From: Slackia exigua ATCC 700122
GTDB lineage: Bacteria; Actinomycetota; Coriobacteriia; Coriobacteriales; Eggerthellaceae
Direction of reading: 5' to 3'
Length of the DNA: 64,000 bases
Assembly (NCBI RefSeq): GCF_000162875.1
Contig: NZ_GG700630.1
Span: 946,015-1,010,014 of the forward strand
Shown in pieces: positions 7,304-29,100 of this stretch (position 1 is the first letter of the stretch; each line of letters starts with the position of its first letter). The position numbers and the translations under genes were made by a program. The notes below the pieces were generated by a model. That model saw only the letters and a list, made by a program, of their open reading frames with translations, searched no databases and was not told the origin of the DNA.

Positions 7304-8200
7304 TTACCAGAGCCCCATCTGCTGCGGCTCGTATTCGACGAGCATTTCCCCCACGGTGATCTCGGTCTCGAAGGATTCCCACGACTTCACCGGCGCGACG
7401 AACGCGCTGCCGTTCTGCTCGAAGACGATGGCGCCGCCGACCAGACCGATGCAGCGGCCGCCGATGACGTCGTCGGGTTCGCCGTCGGGCACCTGCACGA
7501 GCGCCGGGCATGCCACGCCCTCGCCGAAATAGTAGGGTGTCAGGTCAAGGTAGCCGCCTTCAGGCTCGATGCCCAGAAGCGCACAGCGCCGCTTGAGCGA
7601 TTCGATGGCCTCATGCGGATTGAAATACTCGGATAGAAGCTTCACCTTGGCGGACAGGCGCATCGACTCGAACGTGTCGGCACGGGCGCAGAGGTCGGCT
7701 TCCAGGCTGCGCGCATCGTCGGCGTTCTCGAAGCGCTTGAGAATCGCGCAGACGCGTGCGCCCTGCTCGAGCAAACGGTCGATGCCGCGCGTCTCGGACG
7801 AGATGCCGACCTTCAGATGCTGGGGCGAGAAGTAGGCCATATACACGAAATGCGGCGTCTTGTTATAGGCGCGCTGCTGCGGCGATATGGTGCTTGCATT
7901 GTAGAACGCCGGGTCGAACCCGGTGAGCTCCTGGCAATGCGGGCACATGTTCATGTCCTTCTGATCGGGGTTAAGCAGCAGCTCGGCGGACAGCTCGCAG
8001 GCGGCGGACCTATACGAGATCAAGTCGAACGACCCGGTGCAGTACCGGTGCGGCAGACGGCGCAGCGAAAACGTGCGGCCGAGGATGGGCATGCGGTGCT
8101 GGGTCTTTCCGAATACGTCGTTGAATTCCAGATACGGCCCGCGCGCGTCGAAGCCGAGGTTGGACAGAATCAGCGTGCGGTCGGCTGCGATACGCGGCAT
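7304..8200 (-). CDS. DUF2797 domain protein
   Basis: Uncharacterised 298-residue cytoplasmic protein. I assign it to the DUF2797 family from its central block, with FVYMAYFSPQHLKVGIS, an arginine-rich RGIDRLLEQGAR and a preceding CPHC pair near residues 84-87. The VYMAY...KVGIS block resembles a GIY-YIG-like fold, but I cannot show catalytic residues. The C-terminal third is acidic and not recognised. It starts with ATG after a GGAGGCGG site. It is separated from the upstream ferritin gene by a terminator, so it is probably transcribed alone. Function unknown. Confidence 0.7.
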   Translation of the reverse strand: MPRIAADRTLILSNLGFDARGPYLEFNDVFGKTQHRMPILGRTFSLRRLPHRYCTGSFDLISYRSAACELSAELLLNPDQKDMNMCPHCQELTGFDPAFYNASTISPQQRAYNKTPHFVYMAYFSPQHLKVGISSETRGIDRLLEQGARVCAILKRFENADDARSLEADLCARADTFESMRLSAKVKLLSEYFNPHEAIESLKRRCALLGIEPEGGYLDLTPYYFGEGVACPALVQVPDGEPDDVIGGRCIGLVGGAIVFEQNGSAFVAPVKSWESFETEITVGEMLVEYEPQQMGLW

Positions 8201-20971: not shown

Positions 20972-21173
20972 CATATCCGTACCGGCGGCCCCGCAGCGCA
21001 GGATTCCGCGCGATCGACCGAGACGCGATTCCGCGACGCGGAGCTCTACGCAGAACCGCCGGGCCCCCTGATTCCGCACCGCGAAGCCTCGCCGGTCGAG
21101 ACGAAGGTCGCCCGAACCCGCTCCGCCCTTGAGACCGGCCTGCCCTTCCGAACCCGACTTGAAAGGAACTCCC

Positions 21174-21782
21174 TTGACCGAACGATCCGCCGCAACCGGA
21201 CTAGGCCGCGAAAGCCGCCCTGTCCACGACCATCGCCATCACGAAGAACCGAACCCCGTATTCGCGATTCTGACCTGCTCGGACACGCGCTCCAAAAAGG
21301 AAGACAGCGCCGGTGCGGCGCTCGAGGAGCTCATAGCCGAACGCGGATGGACCTGCGTCGAGCGCGTCGTCGTCGTTGACGACCGTGCGGCCATCTCCGC
21401 CCAGATCGCGCGACTCGCCGATATGGATGGAATCGACATCGTTTTGACCTGCGGAGGAAGCGGCCTCTCGCCGCGCGACGTAACCCCCGAGGCCACGCTC
21501 GACGTCTGCGACCGCACGGTTCCCGGCATCGCCGAAGGCATGCGCGCTTGCAGCATGGCCGTCACGCCGCGCGCGATGCTCTCGCGCGCCGTCTGCGCCC
21601 AGCGCGGCTCGACGCTCGTCATCAACCTCCCCGGCAGCGAGAAGGCCGCGCGCGAGAATTGGGACGCCGTCGCCTCCGTGCTTCCCCATGCCGTCTCGAT
21701 GATGGCGGGCGGAAAGCATCCTGAGAACGAAGCCGTCGCTTTACCGCCGCGCTATACTGCCGAACATGGATATTTCAATTGA
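21174..21782 (+). CDS. Molybdopterin adenylyltransferase family (MogA/MoaB)
   Basis: Adenylylates molybdopterin before MoeA acts. The protein (202 residues from this start) has the MoCF fold: AILTCSDTRSKKEDSAG, VLTCGGSGLSPRDVTPEAT, and INLPGSEKAARENW. Its C-terminus carries an extra tail past the usual end. There is no ATG before the domain; TTG at 21174 with AAAGGA 7 bp upstream is the best start, and a TTG at 21129 is the alternative. Its last 17 bases overlap the start of the MocR gene. I leave the symbol blank because MogA and MoaB cannot be separated by eye. Confidence 0.9.
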   Translation: MTERSAATGLGRESRPVHDHRHHEEPNPVFAILTCSDTRSKKEDSAGAALEELIAERGWTCVERVVVVDDRAAISAQIARLADMDGIDIVLTCGGSGLSPRDVTPEATLDVCDRTVPGIAEGMRACSMAVTPRAMLSRAVCAQRGSTLVINLPGSEKAARENWDAVASVLPHAVSMMAGGKHPENEAVALPPRYTAEHGYFN

Positions 21783-23199
21783 CCGCAGCGGCAAGACGCC
21801 TGCGTATCGGCAGGTCTACTTGCAGATACGCAAAGACATAGAATCCGGCTCCCTCAAGGCGGGCGACAAGCTCCCCAAGATACGAGACCTCGCACATGAT
21901 CTGGGCATAGCGCGCAACACAGTCGAGGCAGCCTATAAGCAGCTATCGATCGAGGGGTATGCGTTCGGCAAACGTGGCACGGGCTACATAGTCGAGGAGC
22001 TGAACCTTTCGATTCTCGACGCATGCAGGGCATCCGAAAACGCCGACGACGACCCCCGCTCGTCCCGCGATGCGAGGCCGCGCCGCGAGCCGCTGGGCAA
22101 CTCCTTTGGCTGCACCTACGTTTTCTCCTATGGAAACCGCACATCGGACAAGCTGCCCATATCCACGCTCAAAACCTTGATCGACCGAACGCTCTCGCAG
22201 GAAGATCTCACCGAAGCCGCTTCCTACATCGATCCCTACGGGCTACCCGATCTGCGCCGACAGTTTTCATCCCACCTGCATAAGACGCGAGACATCGTCT
22301 GCTCCTACGAACAGGTGATCCTTCAGCCCGGCACCCAGGCGGCGCTTCACAAGATCGTTTCCGTATTCAGGCACGACAAACGCCCGATCGCCTTGGAAAA
22401 CCCCGGCTACAATGCAGCGCGGAAGGTTTTCGAGGAGCGCGCGGAAGCCATCACGCCAATCCCCGTAAGCAAGGGGCAGGATGCGTTCATCGACGCGCTT
22501 CGCGCAAGCAACGCCAAGCTTGTATTCCTTACGCCTTCAAAGCAATTCCCCCTTGGTTTCATCATGCCGCTCTCGACGCGTCTGAAAGTCATCGAGTGGG
22601 CGAGAGAAACCGATGCCTATATCATCGAAGACGATTACTGCTACGAGTTTCGCTACAACTCGCAGCCCGTTCCAAGCCTTCGTTCGCTCGACCCTGATCA
22701 CGTGATCTATCTTGGAACTATGTCGAAGGTGTTCACGCCGGCGATTCGCATCTCTTTCATAGTGCTGCCGAAGAAGCTCCAGCGACACTGGGACGCAAGC
22801 AGCCGTTTCGATTTCTGCTCCCTTCCTTGGCTCAGCCAGAAGACGCTCGCCCTGTTCATGGCATCAGACGCCTGGAGGCGCTATGTCCGCACGACGGTGG
22901 CCATGTACAAGAAGCGCCATGATCTTCTCGTCAAATCCATCGAGAGAGAAATGGGGGACAAGGTCACCGTCATGGGCGTCGATGCAGGATTGCATCTCTT
23001 GCTCGGCGACAACGAGGGACGCGACCAGAACGAGCTCATAAACCTCGCACGCGAAAACGATGTCCGCGTATACGGCACAAGCGGCTTTTGGGCCGAGGAA
23101 AGCCATCCGATGAGGAACTTCGTCCTTATAGGCTATTCCGGCATACAAGACGAGCTCATACCCGCAGGGATCAGCAAGCTTGCACATGCATGGTATTAG
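21766..23199 (+). CDS. MocR/GabR-type regulator (GntR HTH fused to aminotransferase)
   Basis: 477-residue transcription factor: an N-terminal GntR winged helix (residues 1-75, KAGDKLPKIRDLAHDLGIAR), a linker rich in D and R (90-110), and an aminotransferase-like effector domain with the PLP lysine K321 in GTMSKVFTPAIR. It should sense a PLP adduct and control nearby genes. The ATG overlaps the mogA/moaB end by 17 bp. TATACT at 21753-21758 sits only 7 bp before the ATG, so a leaderless transcript is possible. The stop interlocks with the stop of the convergent torD. Its base composition is less GC-rich than the neighbours. The best target guess is the molybdoenzyme operon. Confidence 0.88.
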   Translation: MDISIDRSGKTPAYRQVYLQIRKDIESGSLKAGDKLPKIRDLAHDLGIARNTVEAAYKQLSIEGYAFGKRGTGYIVEELNLSILDACRASENADDDPRSSRDARPRREPLGNSFGCTYVFSYGNRTSDKLPISTLKTLIDRTLSQEDLTEAASYIDPYGLPDLRRQFSSHLHKTRDIVCSYEQVILQPGTQAALHKIVSVFRHDKRPIALENPGYNAARKVFEERAEAITPIPVSKGQDAFIDALRASNAKLVFLTPSKQFPLGFIMPLSTRLKVIEWARETDAYIIEDDYCYEFRYNSQPVPSLRSLDPDHVIYLGTMSKVFTPAIRISFIVLPKKLQRHWDASSRFDFCSLPWLSQKTLALFMASDAWRRYVRTTVAMYKKRHDLLVKSIEREMGDKVTVMGVDAGLHLLLGDNEGRDQNELINLARENDVRVYGTSGFWAEESHPMRNFVLIGYSGIQDELIPAGISKLAHAWY

Positions 23200-23900
23200 G
23201 CGGCGATCGACGCGCTATGGTCCTGAAGGGCGCCGTCGACATACTCGAGCAGCGCTGAATAATACCCGTCGGGACGCTCCGCATCGACGTTCTTGCGAAG
23301 ATTGCCGATCCAAGCCTGCGGGTGCGCCTGTATGAACCAGACGACTTTGCCTGCCACCTCTTTTGCCGCTTCGGACCCCGGTTGATCCGCCCCTGCAAGA
23401 CGCGATGCCGCTTTCTCGCACAGCGCCGCAAGATACAGCAGCTCAACGCCCATATGGTCTTCGTACTGGTTGCTCCGTCCTGAAAGCTCGAGGCCTTCCT
23501 CGGAAAGCAGCCGCTGCATGGCGACGGTGGCGCGGCCATACCCGACCTTACCGCCGTTCAAGGGATCGTTGCCCGTTTCCCAAGGGTTAGCCGCCGGGCT
23601 AGGCGGCCCGATGAATAGGCGAACGTATTCGACCGAGGCAGCGAGCTCGCCCGGAACGCTTGCATCGACATCGCCCGCATGCAGTGCGGCCTTGGCGGCA
23701 TATGCCTCCAGGCGTGCAAGCCCATCGATGCCGTCGGCAGTTTCCGGCCGAGGCATCGTCGCCCAGAAACCAGGATCGAGCCCTTGAAGATTATGAGAGC
23801 GATTCATAGGTGTAAGCAGCTCGTTTCCCGCAAACCCGTACACCATGCCGTAGGCATGCCAAGATGCGGGATCGAGCACGTCGAGCACTTCAATAGACAT
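23196..23900 (-). CDS. TorD/DmsD-family molybdoenzyme maturation chaperone
   Basis: 234-residue cytoplasmic, mostly helical chaperone that would bind the Tat signal and apo-form of the catalytic subunit before cofactor loading and export. Family signs are EYVRLFIGPPSPAANPWE in the middle and YEDHMGVELLYLAAL further on. It is the last gene of the four-gene molybdoenzyme operon, after the NrfD-like anchor. AAAGGTGAC precedes the ATG. Identification rests on these motifs plus context; the family is divergent. Confidence 0.85.
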   Translation of the reverse strand: MSIEVLDVLDPASWHAYGMVYGFAGNELLTPMNRSHNLQGLDPGFWATMPRPETADGIDGLARLEAYAAKAALHAGDVDASVPGELAASVEYVRLFIGPPSPAANPWETGNDPLNGGKVGYGRATVAMQRLLSEEGLELSGRSNQYEDHMGVELLYLAALCEKAASRLAGADQPGSEAAKEVAGKVVWFIQAHPQAWIGNLRKNVDAERPDGYYSALLEYVDGALQDHSASIAA

Positions 23901-23982: not shown

Positions 23983-25215
23983 CTACGCTTCGGCAGCGAC
24001 TTCCCCATCAAGCGATGCGGCTGCGGCAGGATGCGCCTCGCGCCACTTCGGAACCAGAACATGCGTCAGAACGATGAAGAGGAATCCACCGAACGACACA
24101 ACGGCCAATGCAACGAAAATCTCGGGAATGGTCGGCATATAGGTGCTGGCCGTAGCCCAGATGGCGTCTCCCGCAGATTGGCGCGCGCTCAGGGAGCCGC
24201 TGGAAATGCCCGGCCCGTAGGCGATGTTGGGATGGATGAAGCTCGTGAAGAGCAGCCAGATGCGCTTGCAGAGAACGCTGAGTACGACGAGCGCCGACGC
24301 ACAGCCGACGATCCTCATGTTCGCGCGACGCTTTCTGGATGCAAGCATGACGAACGCGACGAGCAGGCAGACGACCTCGATCCAAAACGCCGGAGCGGTT
24401 GCGCCCGCAAGCATTTCATGAAGGGTCATAAGGACATGCTCCTCTTGCGGGAATGCGGACGAGAGCAGCTCGCACCCAACGAAATACGCATCGAGGGCGA
24501 TGGTCGTCGCCAGGAGCACGGCAAGCTTGGAAACGATGCGTCGAGGGGTCTTGAAGATGCCGTTCTTCTTGAGGGCGAACAGACCGAGGAGAAGCAGCGC
24601 CAGACCGGAGTCCATGGCCGACACGACGAAGAGCGGAGCCATGATGGAACTGTACCAATCGCGGCCGATCTGCAGACCAAGAATCCAAGCGGTCACCGAA
24701 TGCACGAGGAAGGCGACAGGCAGCGCGACGCAGCTTGCGATCCATTGCTTGCGACGGGCATCAGGCTTCTTCGAAACCAGGAACGCCAGCTCGATGACGT
24801 TCATCGCGATATAGAGCGAAATCACGCTCATGTCCCACACCAGCGGCGACATGAAGTTCGGCCCGGTGAACATGCGCCATATACGGTATGCCCCGCCAAG
24901 ATCGACCAGAACAAGCGCGCCTGCTGCAAGGATGCAGGAAATCGAAGTCACGACAGCCGGCAACGCAACCTTCTCGTAATCCTCGACATGAAAGACGCTG
25001 CCCGCGGCGGCAACGATCAGGCCGCCGGCGGAAAGGCCGACGAACAGCAGGAACAGGCAGATGTAAAGTCCCCACGAGGTACCGTTGCTCATGCCCGTGA
25101 TTCCGAGGCCGTATACCTGCTGGGCAATCCAGCAGCCGAAGCCGATGACCATCAGAACGACGAGGGCGCAGAGGATGGCCTTGACGCCCTTGCTCGTTTC
25201 CTTGAACGATCTCAT
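23983..25215 (-). CDS. NrfD/PsrC-type integral membrane subunit
   Basis: 410-residue membrane anchor that would pass electrons between menaquinol and the ferredoxin subunit. I count about nine to ten hydrophobic segments, starting with AILCALVVLMVIGFGCWIA (residues 13-31) and including YICLFLLFVGLSAGGLIVAA, typical of NrfD. A conserved HSVTAWILGLQIGRDWYSS block is also family-like. It lies 12 bp after the Fe-S subunit gene and has a GGAGGAG site. No haem-ligand pattern stands out, consistent with the haem-free NrfD type. Confidence 0.9.
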   Translation of the reverse strand: MRSFKETSKGVKAILCALVVLMVIGFGCWIAQQVYGLGITGMSNGTSWGLYICLFLLFVGLSAGGLIVAAAGSVFHVEDYEKVALPAVVTSISCILAAGALVLVDLGGAYRIWRMFTGPNFMSPLVWDMSVISLYIAMNVIELAFLVSKKPDARRKQWIASCVALPVAFLVHSVTAWILGLQIGRDWYSSIMAPLFVVSAMDSGLALLLLGLFALKKNGIFKTPRRIVSKLAVLLATTIALDAYFVGCELLSSAFPQEEHVLMTLHEMLAGATAPAFWIEVVCLLVAFVMLASRKRRANMRIVGCASALVVLSVLCKRIWLLFTSFIHPNIAYGPGISSGSLSARQSAGDAIWATASTYMPTIPEIFVALAVVSFGGFLFIVLTHVLVPKWREAHPAAAASLDGEVAAEA

Positions 25216-25227
25216 CTCTGCTCCTCC

Positions 25228-25845
25228 CTATTCCCAGTACTTTACCTGCGGACGCGTACCCTTGCCTTCGAGCAGGACGGTCACGTCCTGCTTCGCGACG
25301 ATCTTGGAAATCTCGGAATCGGGATCGTCCAGATCACCGTAAACGCGCGCGCTGGCGGGACAGCACACGACGCACATCGGCTCTTCGCCGTCGTCGCAGC
25401 GCTCCTTGCACAGCGAGCATTTCTCCATGACGCCCTTGAGGCGTACCGGGACCTTGCTGTAGCCCGTTTGAAAATCGGGATCATGATCGGGCTCGGACCA
25501 ATTGAAGACTCGTGCGTTATACGGGCAGGCCGCCATGCAGAAGCGGCAGCCGATGCACTTGTCGTAGTCGATCTCCACGCGACCCTTCTCGTCCTTGTAG
25601 GTAGCGCCCGTAGGACATACTTTCTGACATGCGGGGTTCTCGCAGTGCTGGCATGCAAGCGGCACCCACTTGCGCGTCACGTTGGGATACGCTCCCTGGA
25701 CGCCGTCGAGCACGTCGGATCCCTCGGTCAAAACGCGGTTCCACAGCATGCCCATCGGCACGTTGTTGGACATCTTGCACGCGTTGGCGCAGGTTTGGCA
25801 GCCAACGCAGCGGGACAGGTTTATCGCCATTCCCAGTTTGGTCAT
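25228..25845 (-). CDS. Four-cluster [4Fe-4S] ferredoxin subunit (DmsB/NrfC type)
   Basis: 205-residue electron-transfer subunit linking the membrane anchor to the molybdenum protein. It has four cysteine groups for four [4Fe-4S] clusters: CVGCQTCANAC, CQHCENPACQKVC, CIGCRFCMAAC and CSLCKERC followed by CVVCCP. It has no signal peptide, as expected if it is carried through Tat with the catalytic subunit. The gene sits 14 bp after the catalytic gene, with GGAGG before its ATG. Confidence 0.94.
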   Translation of the reverse strand: MTKLGMAINLSRCVGCQTCANACKMSNNVPMGMLWNRVLTEGSDVLDGVQGAYPNVTRKWVPLACQHCENPACQKVCPTGATYKDEKGRVEIDYDKCIGCRFCMAACPYNARVFNWSEPDHDPDFQTGYSKVPVRLKGVMEKCSLCKERCDDGEEPMCVVCCPASARVYGDLDDPDSEISKIVAKQDVTVLLEGKGTRPQVKYWE

Positions 25846-25859
25846 GATGCTGCCTCCTT

Positions 25860-28244
25860 CTATGCCTTCTCCACCTGGATCAGCGTGTCGTTGAACGGTG
25901 TGACGGGCGCCGCGTTGAGCCAGATCGAACGTTCATTGCGGCTATCGTTGGTGACGTTTTGCACGGGGCCGGAGCCAGATGCCATGAACTTGGGCCACTG
26001 GCCTTCCATGGTGCGCACCGTGCCGGGACGGATCGCATTGTTGATGCGAACCTTGCACTTGAATTCACCGCGATCGTTGAAGCCGCGCACGATATCGTCG
26101 TTGGCAAGCCCGCGCGCCTTCGCGTCTTCTTCGTTCATCTCGAGCGTGGTCATGTAGAACTGCTGAATCCACGCGGCATCGACGAACTGCTCATGGACGA
26201 AGAACTTGGAGCGGGTCTGGGAGAGCTGCAGCGGATACTTCTCCATAAGAGGATTGCCTTCGTAGGCTTCGTTCGGATCCTCATAGAGAGGAAGCGTCTG
26301 CCCGTCATCGACCATCCAGTCGTAGAAGACCTCGACGCGACCGGTCTGGGAAGGAAGGCCGTCCTCGATCCTGTCGAACGAGAACTCTTTGGGCACATTG
26401 AGCCTCATCAGCCCATTGTTGGCGATGAGCGCGTCGACCGTGATGCCCGCAAGCGCCTCGTCGTCGGAATCGAGCATGGCCTCGACGAGCTCGCGACGGG
26501 TCTTAGGCAGGTACTGATCGCAACCTAACGCTTTAGCCAGGCCGAGCTCGATCTCATAGTCGGGCTTGGATTCGAAGAGCGGGTCGATGACCTTCTGCTG
26601 GAGCTCGACGTAGTCGCGAGCATTCCTGACAGAGCCGATCTCCTCGTTGAGCTCGAACTTCGAACAGGCGGGCAAGACGATGTCGGCCCAGTCGACGGAC
26701 ATGTTGTGATAGATATCGACGACCATGACGAAGTCGAGGGATTTGAGCCACTCCTCGGTCTTCTTGGTATTGGCGTAATGCATGAGGAAGGCATCCCCCA
26801 ATGCGACGCAGGCATGCACGCCGGCTTCGTCGTCGCGACGCTCGTAATTCCCTTCGACGCCCTCGGAAATACCCCAATCCTCGGGGGTCTCCCACGTGCC
26901 GTATTCGCAGCCATACGTACGTATCCACTGGCTGAAGCCGCCGGCGCCGGAGCCGCGGTGGGTACCGAAGATTCCGCACAGCGCCGAGAGAACCGCGGCG
27001 CAGTGGCCAAGCACATCGGCGTTGTACCACTTATCGCCGCCGCCCCAGCCCATGGAGAGCACGGCCGGCTGATTGTTGGCGAACTCGTCGGTCATCTGCG
27101 TTATGCGGTCGGCATCGAGATGGGTCTTCTCGGCCGCCCACTCGAGCGGATAGTTCCGAGCGTTCTTCTTAAGCTGCGAAAATACGGTGATGTACTGCTC
27201 GTTTTCGAACTCCAGTTGCGGAGTTGCGGATGCGTCATGGTCTTTGACGCCGCCATCCCAGACCTTGAACTTGTTCGTGAGGCCCGACCCTTCCTCAGGA
27301 GCGCCCTTGCTCTGCCGATCGCGCTCGAGCATTCCCGTTTTCTTGTCGATCAAAAACGGGAAGCTCGTGTATTTGAGGCAGTAGTTTTCGTTGTACCATT
27401 TGTTGTCGAGCACGAGCGTGATCATGCCGAGAAGCAGCGCCGAGTCCGTGCCGGGCTGGATGGGCATCCATTCATCGCACTTGGTGGCCGTCGAGGTGTG
27501 ATTGGGATCGACGCACCACATCTTCGCGCCGGCTTCCTTGGCATCCATGAACCACCGGTTGTAGACCAGGTTGGTCTCGATGATGTTGGTGCCTAGATGG
27601 ATGATGGTCTTTGATTTATCCCAGTCGCCGACGCTGTTAGTGGAAAGCATCTCTTGGTTATCGTAGCGGCCCAGCGCCGGATCGAAACCATTGCCGATGC
27701 CGACGTCGACGCCCTCGATATCCTCATCCTGGATCTGGCCTTTCAAAAAATCGGCGATGAAGGTGAAGCCTGTGCGCGGCTCGAGGCAGGTATCGAACAG
27801 AAGCGCCTGATTGCCGTACTTCTCCTGCACGGCCTTGATCTGCGTGGCGCACTCTTCAAAAGCCTCGTCCCAGCTGATGGAAACGAATTCTCCCGAGCCA
27901 CGCTCGCCGATGCGCTTGAGCGGCGTCTGGATGCGGGTATCTCCATAGATATGCTGGACTTCGGAAATGCCCTTCAGACATACCGTGTTGAAGCGCTTCT
28001 CGCCCGGCCAGTCGTTTGGCTCGACCTGCACCAAGCGGCCATCGCGCACCGTGCATTTGAGCGAGCAGTTTCCACCGCAGTGCCACTGGTGGAACGTGTA
28101 TGCGGTTTTTTCCTGCGCCGAACCGGCGTAGGCTGCGTCGGTTGACTTGAGCCAAGTGGCGTACGATGCAGCGCCTCCTGCCCCTGCAGCGATGGCCGTG
28201 GCGGCACCTGCCGTCCCCAGGAAACCACGACGTGTGAGACTCAT
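25860..28244 (-). CDS. Tat-exported molybdopterin oxidoreductase, catalytic subunit (DMSO reductase family)
   Basis: 794-residue bis-MGD enzyme. The N-terminus is a Tat signal (LTRRGFLGTAGAATAIAAGA). Four cysteines for a [4Fe-4S] cluster follow at C56, C60, C64 and C89. Molybdopterin domains include HLGTNIIETN, DWADIVLPACSKFE and the C-terminal cap (NDIVRGFNDRGEF). The residue binding molybdenum is not clear; the stretch GIGNGFDPALGRYDNQEM lies where a Ser, Cys or Asp ligand is often found. The substrate is unknown: S- or N-oxides are possible, and Eggerthellaceae use related enzymes for catechol dehydroxylation. It heads the operon with Fe-S, NrfD and TorD genes; AAGGGGGAT precedes the ATG. 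Confidence 0.93.
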   Translation of the reverse strand: MSLTRRGFLGTAGAATAIAAGAGGAASYATWLKSTDAAYAGSAQEKTAYTFHQWHCGGNCSLKCTVRDGRLVQVEPNDWPGEKRFNTVCLKGISEVQHIYGDTRIQTPLKRIGERGSGEFVSISWDEAFEECATQIKAVQEKYGNQALLFDTCLEPRTGFTFIADFLKGQIQDEDIEGVDVGIGNGFDPALGRYDNQEMLSTNSVGDWDKSKTIIHLGTNIIETNLVYNRWFMDAKEAGAKMWCVDPNHTSTATKCDEWMPIQPGTDSALLLGMITLVLDNKWYNENYCLKYTSFPFLIDKKTGMLERDRQSKGAPEEGSGLTNKFKVWDGGVKDHDASATPQLEFENEQYITVFSQLKKNARNYPLEWAAEKTHLDADRITQMTDEFANNQPAVLSMGWGGGDKWYNADVLGHCAAVLSALCGIFGTHRGSGAGGFSQWIRTYGCEYGTWETPEDWGISEGVEGNYERRDDEAGVHACVALGDAFLMHYANTKKTEEWLKSLDFVMVVDIYHNMSVDWADIVLPACSKFELNEEIGSVRNARDYVELQQKVIDPLFESKPDYEIELGLAKALGCDQYLPKTRRELVEAMLDSDDEALAGITVDALIANNGLMRLNVPKEFSFDRIEDGLPSQTGRVEVFYDWMVDDGQTLPLYEDPNEAYEGNPLMEKYPLQLSQTRSKFFVHEQFVDAAWIQQFYMTTLEMNEEDAKARGLANDDIVRGFNDRGEFKCKVRINNAIRPGTVRTMEGQWPKFMASGSGPVQNVTNDSRNERSIWLNAAPVTPFNDTLIQVEKA

Positions 28245-28274
28245 GACTATCCCCCTTTAACGTCTTTCGCCTCA

Positions 28275-28326
28275 TATTAATCCCTACATCTCTTATATAT
28301 TTTGATAGCAGAGTTAGGGATTAATA
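28275..28326 (-). promoter_or_regulatory. Promoter/operator region of the molybdoenzyme operon
   Basis: A perfect 12-bp inverted repeat, TATTAATCCCTA (28275-28286) and TAGGGATTAATA (28315-28326), has centres 40 bp apart, about four helical turns. Between the arms the minus strand reads AAAATATATAAGAG, giving a -10 candidate TATAAG (28292-28297). The position of the -35 would fall on TCCCTA inside the upstream arm, a poor match to TTGACA, so activation by a bound regulator is plausible. The wider 28261-28400 segment is strikingly AT-rich for this genome. The nearby MocR protein is the obvious candidate ligand. Confidence 0.6.
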
Positions 28327-28458
28327 ATCTTAAGCCATAGTTTGATAACGTTTTCAGACAATATCAATGGGGATTGTTAAGTGATTCAAGAAAATATGGG
28401 GATAGCGAAAGCCGACAGCTAAGACTGCGCGAAGGCGGCATGCCCTCGGCTCTGAAAA

Positions 28459-28577
28459 GCCGCCGATGTGACAGCGCCTGCAATGCGCGCGGTTCTGCAT
28501 GGGCCGGACGTGCCGCCAGCACGTCCGCGCGAGCTCAAGATCGTTCGAGCACGCATATGTCCTGCCGCATCGCCGAC
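28459..28577 (-). ncRNA. Structured RNA copy 1, candidate Moco-sensing leader
   Basis: On the minus strand a closing helix GTCGGCGATG / CATCGGCGGC (28568-28577 with 28459-28468; one mismatch) encloses a second helix ATGCGTGC / GCGCGCAT and an inner hairpin GGACGTGC-TGGCG-GCACGTCC (28506-28526). The sequence is homologous to copy 2 (29189-29305). It lies after moaC and before the molybdoenzyme promoter region. Its closing helix is followed directly by TTTTC, and a GGCGGC/GCCGCC alternative pairing exists downstream, so it could end transcription. Assignment to the Moco riboswitch class is inference from context and architecture. Confidence 0.6.
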
Positions 28578-28599
28578 ATGTGCGCAACAAACCCCAAGC

Positions 28600-29100
28600 T
28601 TAGCCCCTCAGCCACAGACCCGTCTTGCCGCCGTCCTTCTTGAGCAGACGGACATCCATGATCTCCATGCCGCGGTCGACGGCCTTGCACATGTCGTAGA
28701 CCGTCAGGCATGCGACGCTCGCCGCGGTGAGCGCTTCCATCTCGATGCCGGTCTTGCCCGTGACGCCGCAGGTCGTCGTCACATGGATGCCGACGCGTCC
28801 GTCCTCGCGCTCGCCCGGACCCACCGGAAGGCATTCGACCTTGGCTTTCGTGATCATGAGCGGATGGCACATCGGGATGAGCTCGCTCGTCTTCTTCGCA
28901 GCCATCACGCCCGCGACGCGCGCGCATGCAAGCACATCGCCCTTCGCCGCCGAGCCGCTCGTGATCATCTCCAACGTTTCCGCGTGCATGGCGATGAACC
29001 CCTCGGCAACCGCGACGCGCTTCGTGTCGTCCTTCTCCGATACGTCGACCATGCGCACATCGCCCTTCTCGTCGATATGCGTAAGCTTCTGATCGGCCAT
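28600..29100 (-). CDS. moaC: Cyclic pyranopterin monophosphate synthase MoaC
   Basis: With MoaA it converts GTP to cyclic pyranopterin monophosphate, the first Moco intermediate. The 166-residue protein has [45 protein letters not shown] and the final [11 protein letters not shown], all MoaC signatures including the active-site lysine and histidine regions. Two ATGs lie together (29103 and 29100); the second is preferred because AGGAG is 5 bp before it. It stands between the two structured RNA copies and downstream of moaA. Confidence 0.95.

Follow-up and report, generated by a model that had tools for sequence, protein, structure and literature searches.

The window analyzed here, a 64-kb stretch of the Slackia exigua ATCC 700122 genome, contains an operon that begins with a molybdoenzyme gene (25860-28244) and continues through genes of FeS, NrfD, and TorD-like proteins to position 23196. 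The gene of a MocR-subfamily regulator converges on the far end of this operon and overlaps it by 4 bp, which agrees with its placement in the initial annotation. The genes are as follows:

25860-28244, minus strand: molybdopterin oxidoreductase, DmsA/PhsA-like, 794 aa (Pfam PF00384, PF01568, and PF04879; NCBIfam)
25228-25845, minus strand: 4Fe-4S electron-transfer subunit
23983-25215, minus strand: NrfD-type membrane subunit
23196-23900, minus strand: TorD/DmsD-type (nitrate reductase delta family) chaperone
21766-23199, plus strand: mocR, MocR-subfamily regulator (GntR wHTH plus fold-type-I aminotransferase domain)

The start of mocR is overlapped by 17 bp by a MoCF_biosynth (molybdopterin-binding-domain) gene at 21129-21782, located downstream of moeA. 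Because of this overlap, mocR is probably expressed together with the molybdenum cofactor genes rather than from a promoter of its own. The encoded protein combines an N-terminal GntR winged helix (PF00392, 55.8 bits, residues 14-76) with a C-terminal fold-type-I aminotransferase domain (PF00155, residues 130-417). Its best match among solved structures, over the full length, is GabR of Bacillus subtilis (PDB 4N0B and 4MGR; E 9e-62), with which it aligns end to end; the PLP-binding lysine motif is conserved, TMSK of the window protein being aligned with TFSK of GabR. GabR controls GABA genes, and the letters of its boxes differ from those described below.

By NCBIfam score, the window MocR is also similar to PdxR: it reaches 395 bits with the PdxR model NF052282, the cutoff of which is 320. 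It differs from PdxR in having a molybdoenzyme operon as its neighbor, and it is not linked to pdxS or pdxT. In our reading of the sequence, the window MocR is probably not the B6 regulator, despite passing the PdxR cutoff. The pdxS gene lies on another contig (C1:111052), divergent from a MocR paralogue (C1:109623) that is likely the true PdxR of this genome. GGGAT boxes were sought in the spacer between pdxS and this paralogue and none were present; the spacer (G000:C1:109623-111666, L166) has other repeats, which are ATTCAATG/CATTGAAT-like. The automatic name PdxR is misleading for proteins such as the window MocR.

Upstream of the molybdoenzyme gene, the sequence TATTAATCCCTA occupies positions 28275-28286, about 30 bp from the gene start, and its exact reverse complement occupies positions 28315-28326. 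The gap between the arms is 28 bp and their centers are 40 bp apart, exactly as in the perfect 12-bp inverted repeat of the initial annotation. That annotation also placed a -10 candidate between the arms and considered the -35 poor. Both statements hold: the AT-rich stretch between the arms (28287-28314, minus strand) contains the -10 candidates TATCAA, TATATA, and TATAAG, of which TATATA/TATAAG are taken here as the presumed -10 of the molybdoenzyme promoter, and a promoter scan of 28200-28700 returned no sigma-70 promoter with both hexamers at 16-18 bp and a fair -35. No intrinsic terminator was found in the same interval.

Could the repeat be accidental, or a relic without function? By chance alone, a random 64-kb window should hold about 0.57 (~0.6) perfect 12-bp inverted repeats whose arms are separated by no more than 60 bp, and the window contains three longer inverted repeats, all GC-rich. 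Within the 355-bp intergenic region, however, such a repeat appears in only ~0.1% of first-order Markov shuffles (P ~0.001), and no other inverted repeat of at least 12 bp in the window is AT-rich. The pattern searches, by which uniqueness was judged genome-wide, point in the same direction. The 12-mer with up to one mismatch occurs in the whole 2.1-Mb genome only as these two arms (control, 0), so that the genome search proposed in the initial annotation revealed no unrelated sites; AATCCCYN{15,45}RGGGATT has a single genome location, the molybdoenzyme promoter (control, 0); and the shorter TRGGGATTRWT has five matches, three of them at the molybdoenzyme promoter and two inside open reading frames. 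Against a chance or functionless origin stand also the boxes and spacing preserved in a diverged promoter and the recovery of the boxes by an independently trained matrix, both described below. The comparative tests have largely refuted this origin, which we regard as very unlikely. It should be noted that, among 12 genomes of the genus, the exact 12-mer pair is present only in the genome of the window, and thus conservation does not extend to the exact letters of the arms.

The window MocR forms one clade (support 100/100) with its two closest homologues, those of Hugonella massiliensis and of genome G143 (~55% identity), and in both genomes a molybdoenzyme promoter bears the box of the window, (A/T)RGGGATT. 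The gene order in Hugonella is that of the window, with a convergent mocR (54-55% identity) and a molybdoenzyme of 75% identity; when the molybdoenzyme protein served as the query against the genome collection, Hugonella was the only relative with a close copy. The Hugonella molybdoenzyme promoter contains AATCCC-N32-GGGATT twice, each time exactly 44 bp long, which is the length of the window pair; the probability of such a pair in shuffles is ~1e-4. The two promoters are identical in 31 of 42 box columns and in 58 of 139 columns elsewhere. Hugonella and the window share promoter ancestry, so this conservation is partly a matter of descent, which counts against its use as evidence of a MocR operator. 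In G143, the MocR gene (55%) is divergent from a different molybdoenzyme, only 24% identical to that of the window. The spacer between the two has the (A/G)ATGGGGATTG box twice, and AATGGGGATTG and GATGGGGATTG are 41 bp apart there in direct orientation. The pair is absent from molybdoenzyme homologues of 46-48% identity in those fetched loci in which no full-length MocR was detected.

A 13-column matrix, for which the seven GGGATT boxes in the promoters of Hugonella and G143 were the sole input, was used to scan both strands of the 64-kb window. Among ~128,000 positions, the matches ranked 1, 2, 5, and 12 all lie in the molybdoenzyme promoter, at 28366 (AATGGGGATTGTT), 28313 (GTTAGGGATTAAT), 28276 on the minus strand (TGTAGGGATTAAT), and 28395 (TATGGGGATAGCG), from which it follows that the putative operator has at least four boxes:

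28275-28286, minus strand: box 1, the proximal arm, TAGGGATTAATA on the minus strand and TATTAATCCCTA on the plus strand (exact match); about -40 from the molybdoenzyme ATG, in the opposite orientation to the other boxes; rank 5
28315-28326, plus strand: box 2, the distal arm, TAGGGATTAATA (exact match); about -77 from the ATG, over the weak -35 region; rank 2
28366-28378, plus strand: box 3, AATGGGGATTGTT; about -130 from the ATG, oriented like box 2; rank 1
28395-28407, plus strand: box 4, TATGGGGATAGCG, weaker; about -159 from the ATG; rank 12

Boxes 1 and 2 together constitute the 44-bp AATCCC-N32-GGGATT pair. Box 3 contains CAATCCCCATTG, also present in the spacer between mocR and the molybdoenzyme gene of G143 and, in nearly identical form, in Hugonella; box 4 fits the direct repeats of the family in their TATGGGGAY form. 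The spacings are 37, 53, and 29 bp, with one box flipped. The inverted repeat thus very probably belongs to a cluster of putative MocR binding sites, and the candidate operator, at 28275-28407, is larger than the 28275-28326 element described initially.

The window and Hugonella promoters have arms with symmetrical differences, TTAATCCC/GGGATTAA in the former and TTGCAATCCC/GGGATTGCAA in the latter. Such symmetry would also be required by a stem, and the arms might instead act at the RNA level, as a hairpin that forms in the 5′ leader of the molybdoenzyme transcript and controls its translation or stability. The window arms indeed fold to a 12-bp stem (-19.3 kcal/mol, z -2.1), and Hugonella folds similarly through TTGCAATCCC/GGGATTGCAA (-27.2, z -2.0). 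However, the boxes of G143 and of most relatives are direct repeats, unable to pair together, and no Rfam family was matched in the window. Moreover, transcription would have to start upstream of the distal arm for a hairpin to form, yet the -10 candidates sit between the arms, and the hairpin leaves boxes 3 and 4 and the co-variation with the MocR helix unexplained. In our opinion, the hairpin is improbable. A tight palindrome, AATTAGGGATTG-N6-CAATCCCTAATT, is present at 7902-7931 of the Hugonella locus (L034), where it coincides with a weak terminator-like match; its pairing could compete with that of the 44-bp pair, as DNA or RNA.

The wider clade was sampled by MocR similarity alone. In 25 of its 52 loci, GGGAY is repeated at exactly 24 bp within 250 bp upstream of mocR, compared with 0.12 loci expected from shuffles. 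These boxes resemble RGGGACGGTT and ATGGGGACGGTT, and a TATA-like sequence often separates them. The box letters follow the recognition helix of the MocR protein. Thus, 24-bp GGGAY repeats are found with 24 of 37 RNT-type helices, the other 13 being without a recognizable repeat of this kind, while HTT-type helices are accompanied by (C/T)GG(A/G)CAG 24-bp repeats in 7 of 10 cases and by GGGAY repeats in none (Fisher p 2e-4 and 2e-5, with phylogeny not corrected). Such co-variation is what would be expected if the neighboring MocR binds the boxes. It follows two large clades and so represents few independent events, which counts against the MocR reading. A respiratory reductase is divergent from mocR in 42 of the 50 loci with enough sequence. 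Ten of these reductases are NrfA-like cytochromes c552 and 32 are molybdoenzymes, most of which are NapA-like with a NapG-like FeS protein and the others DmsA/PhsA-like.

The initial annotation proposed the inverted repeat as a candidate MocR operator. This part of the proposal is strengthened, since the GGGAT core recurs upstream of MocR relatives and the closest homologues carry GGGATT boxes; the two-box inverted layout is not, given at least four boxes in the promoter and the direct repeat as the usual geometry of the clade. In the form that we favor, and consider highly probable on sequence grounds, the 21766-23199 MocR would control the molybdoenzyme operon through a putative operator of four boxes, with the inverted repeat as its promoter-proximal pair. 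The box letters at 28275-28407 are common to the orthologous MocR loci of Hugonella and G143, and, with respect to the reductase gene, boxes 2, 3, and 4 are oriented as is usual in the clade, box 1 being the one that is flipped. Further features argue against this assignment: the window boxes depart from the usual 24-bp direct repeat, which is absent from 28275-28407; the window mocR is not divergent from its target operon; and 13 of the 37 relatives with RNT helices are without a recognizable 24-bp GGGAY repeat.

Another regulator, encoded elsewhere, such as a LuxR-type activator or an FNR/ModE-like factor, might also bind the boxes. This suggestion draws on the 12-TM LuxR regulators that activate the catechol dehydroxylases of E. 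lenta (PMC9734109), which likewise control molybdenum enzymes in the same bacterial class; these are membrane proteins of a different family, and the report describing them does not mention MocR or GntR (PMC9734109). However, the box family tracks MocR genes over many genomes, with letters that differ according to the MocR recognition helix, and in G143 the box is kept next to a molybdoenzyme just 24% identical to that of the window, MocR being the common element. We therefore hold a regulator other than MocR to be quite unlikely.

If the window MocR is the regulator, each box, with its RGGGAT core, would be read by one GntR winged helix. One or more PLP-bearing MocR dimers would contact the boxes that flank the molybdoenzyme -10 and, probably, those farther upstream, perhaps with bending or looping of the DNA. 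Upon sensing of a ligand by the aminotransferase-like domain, the molybdoenzyme/FeS/NrfD/TorD operon would be switched. With TATATA/TATAAG placed as the -10, the weak -35 region would lie under the distal arm and the start region under the proximal one. For the upstream boxes we lean slightly, as a guess, toward activation via the box over the weak -35, while the downstream arm (box 1) could repress.

MocR operators are already known, and the putative one at 28275-28407 would add a new member. Those of GabR, PdxR, and TauR consist of two to four boxes, direct and inverted, with whole-helix-turn spacing and a conserved GG core (Suvorova and Rodionov 2016, PMC5320631). The arrangement met most frequently is a pair of direct boxes with a third inverted; spacing and orientation differ from group to group, and PLP is reported to make PdxR switch between the direct and inverted types of repeat (PMC5320631). 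The putative window operator resembles these in its multi-box direct/inverted layout with a GG core, but differs in having respiratory reductases as the targets of its clade and a box that reads RGGGAT or GGGAC. Most functions assigned in that survey concern the metabolism of PLP, GABA, taurine, and ectoine, the others being given only in general terms (reduction/oxidation, transporters), and the main text of the survey mentions neither molybdenum nor Coriobacteria (PMC5320631). Our literature search did not find MocR together with DMSO reductase, and titles and abstracts contained nothing on MocR regulation of nitrate reductase. Nor did we find, in the literature searched, any MocR clade linked to respiratory reductases, those of nitrate and nitrite included, which is no proof of novelty.

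In the literature that we found, control of molybdenum reductases in gut Coriobacteriia has so far been described via membrane LuxR proteins; the present results point to a second, soluble, PLP-dependent route. More broadly, we think it fairly probable that, as a whole, this Coriobacteriia MocR clade is devoted to anaerobic respiration (nap, nrf, and several operons of the DMSO reductase family), with a box code that follows the recognition helix at a fixed 24 bp, and that the window/Hugonella branch rewired its boxes to a long-spaced inverted pair, at a promoter that is not adjacent to the mocR start. The co-variation of box and helix at fixed spacing is a natural data set on DNA reading by MocR proteins. 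About half of the mocR upstream regions (L036-L054, L109-L140) hold 24-bp direct repeats, and some mocR/nap spacers (L049, L117, L121, L129, L130, and L137) have five to seven GGGAY boxes with alternating 18-19/24-bp spacing, which suggests cooperative arrays.
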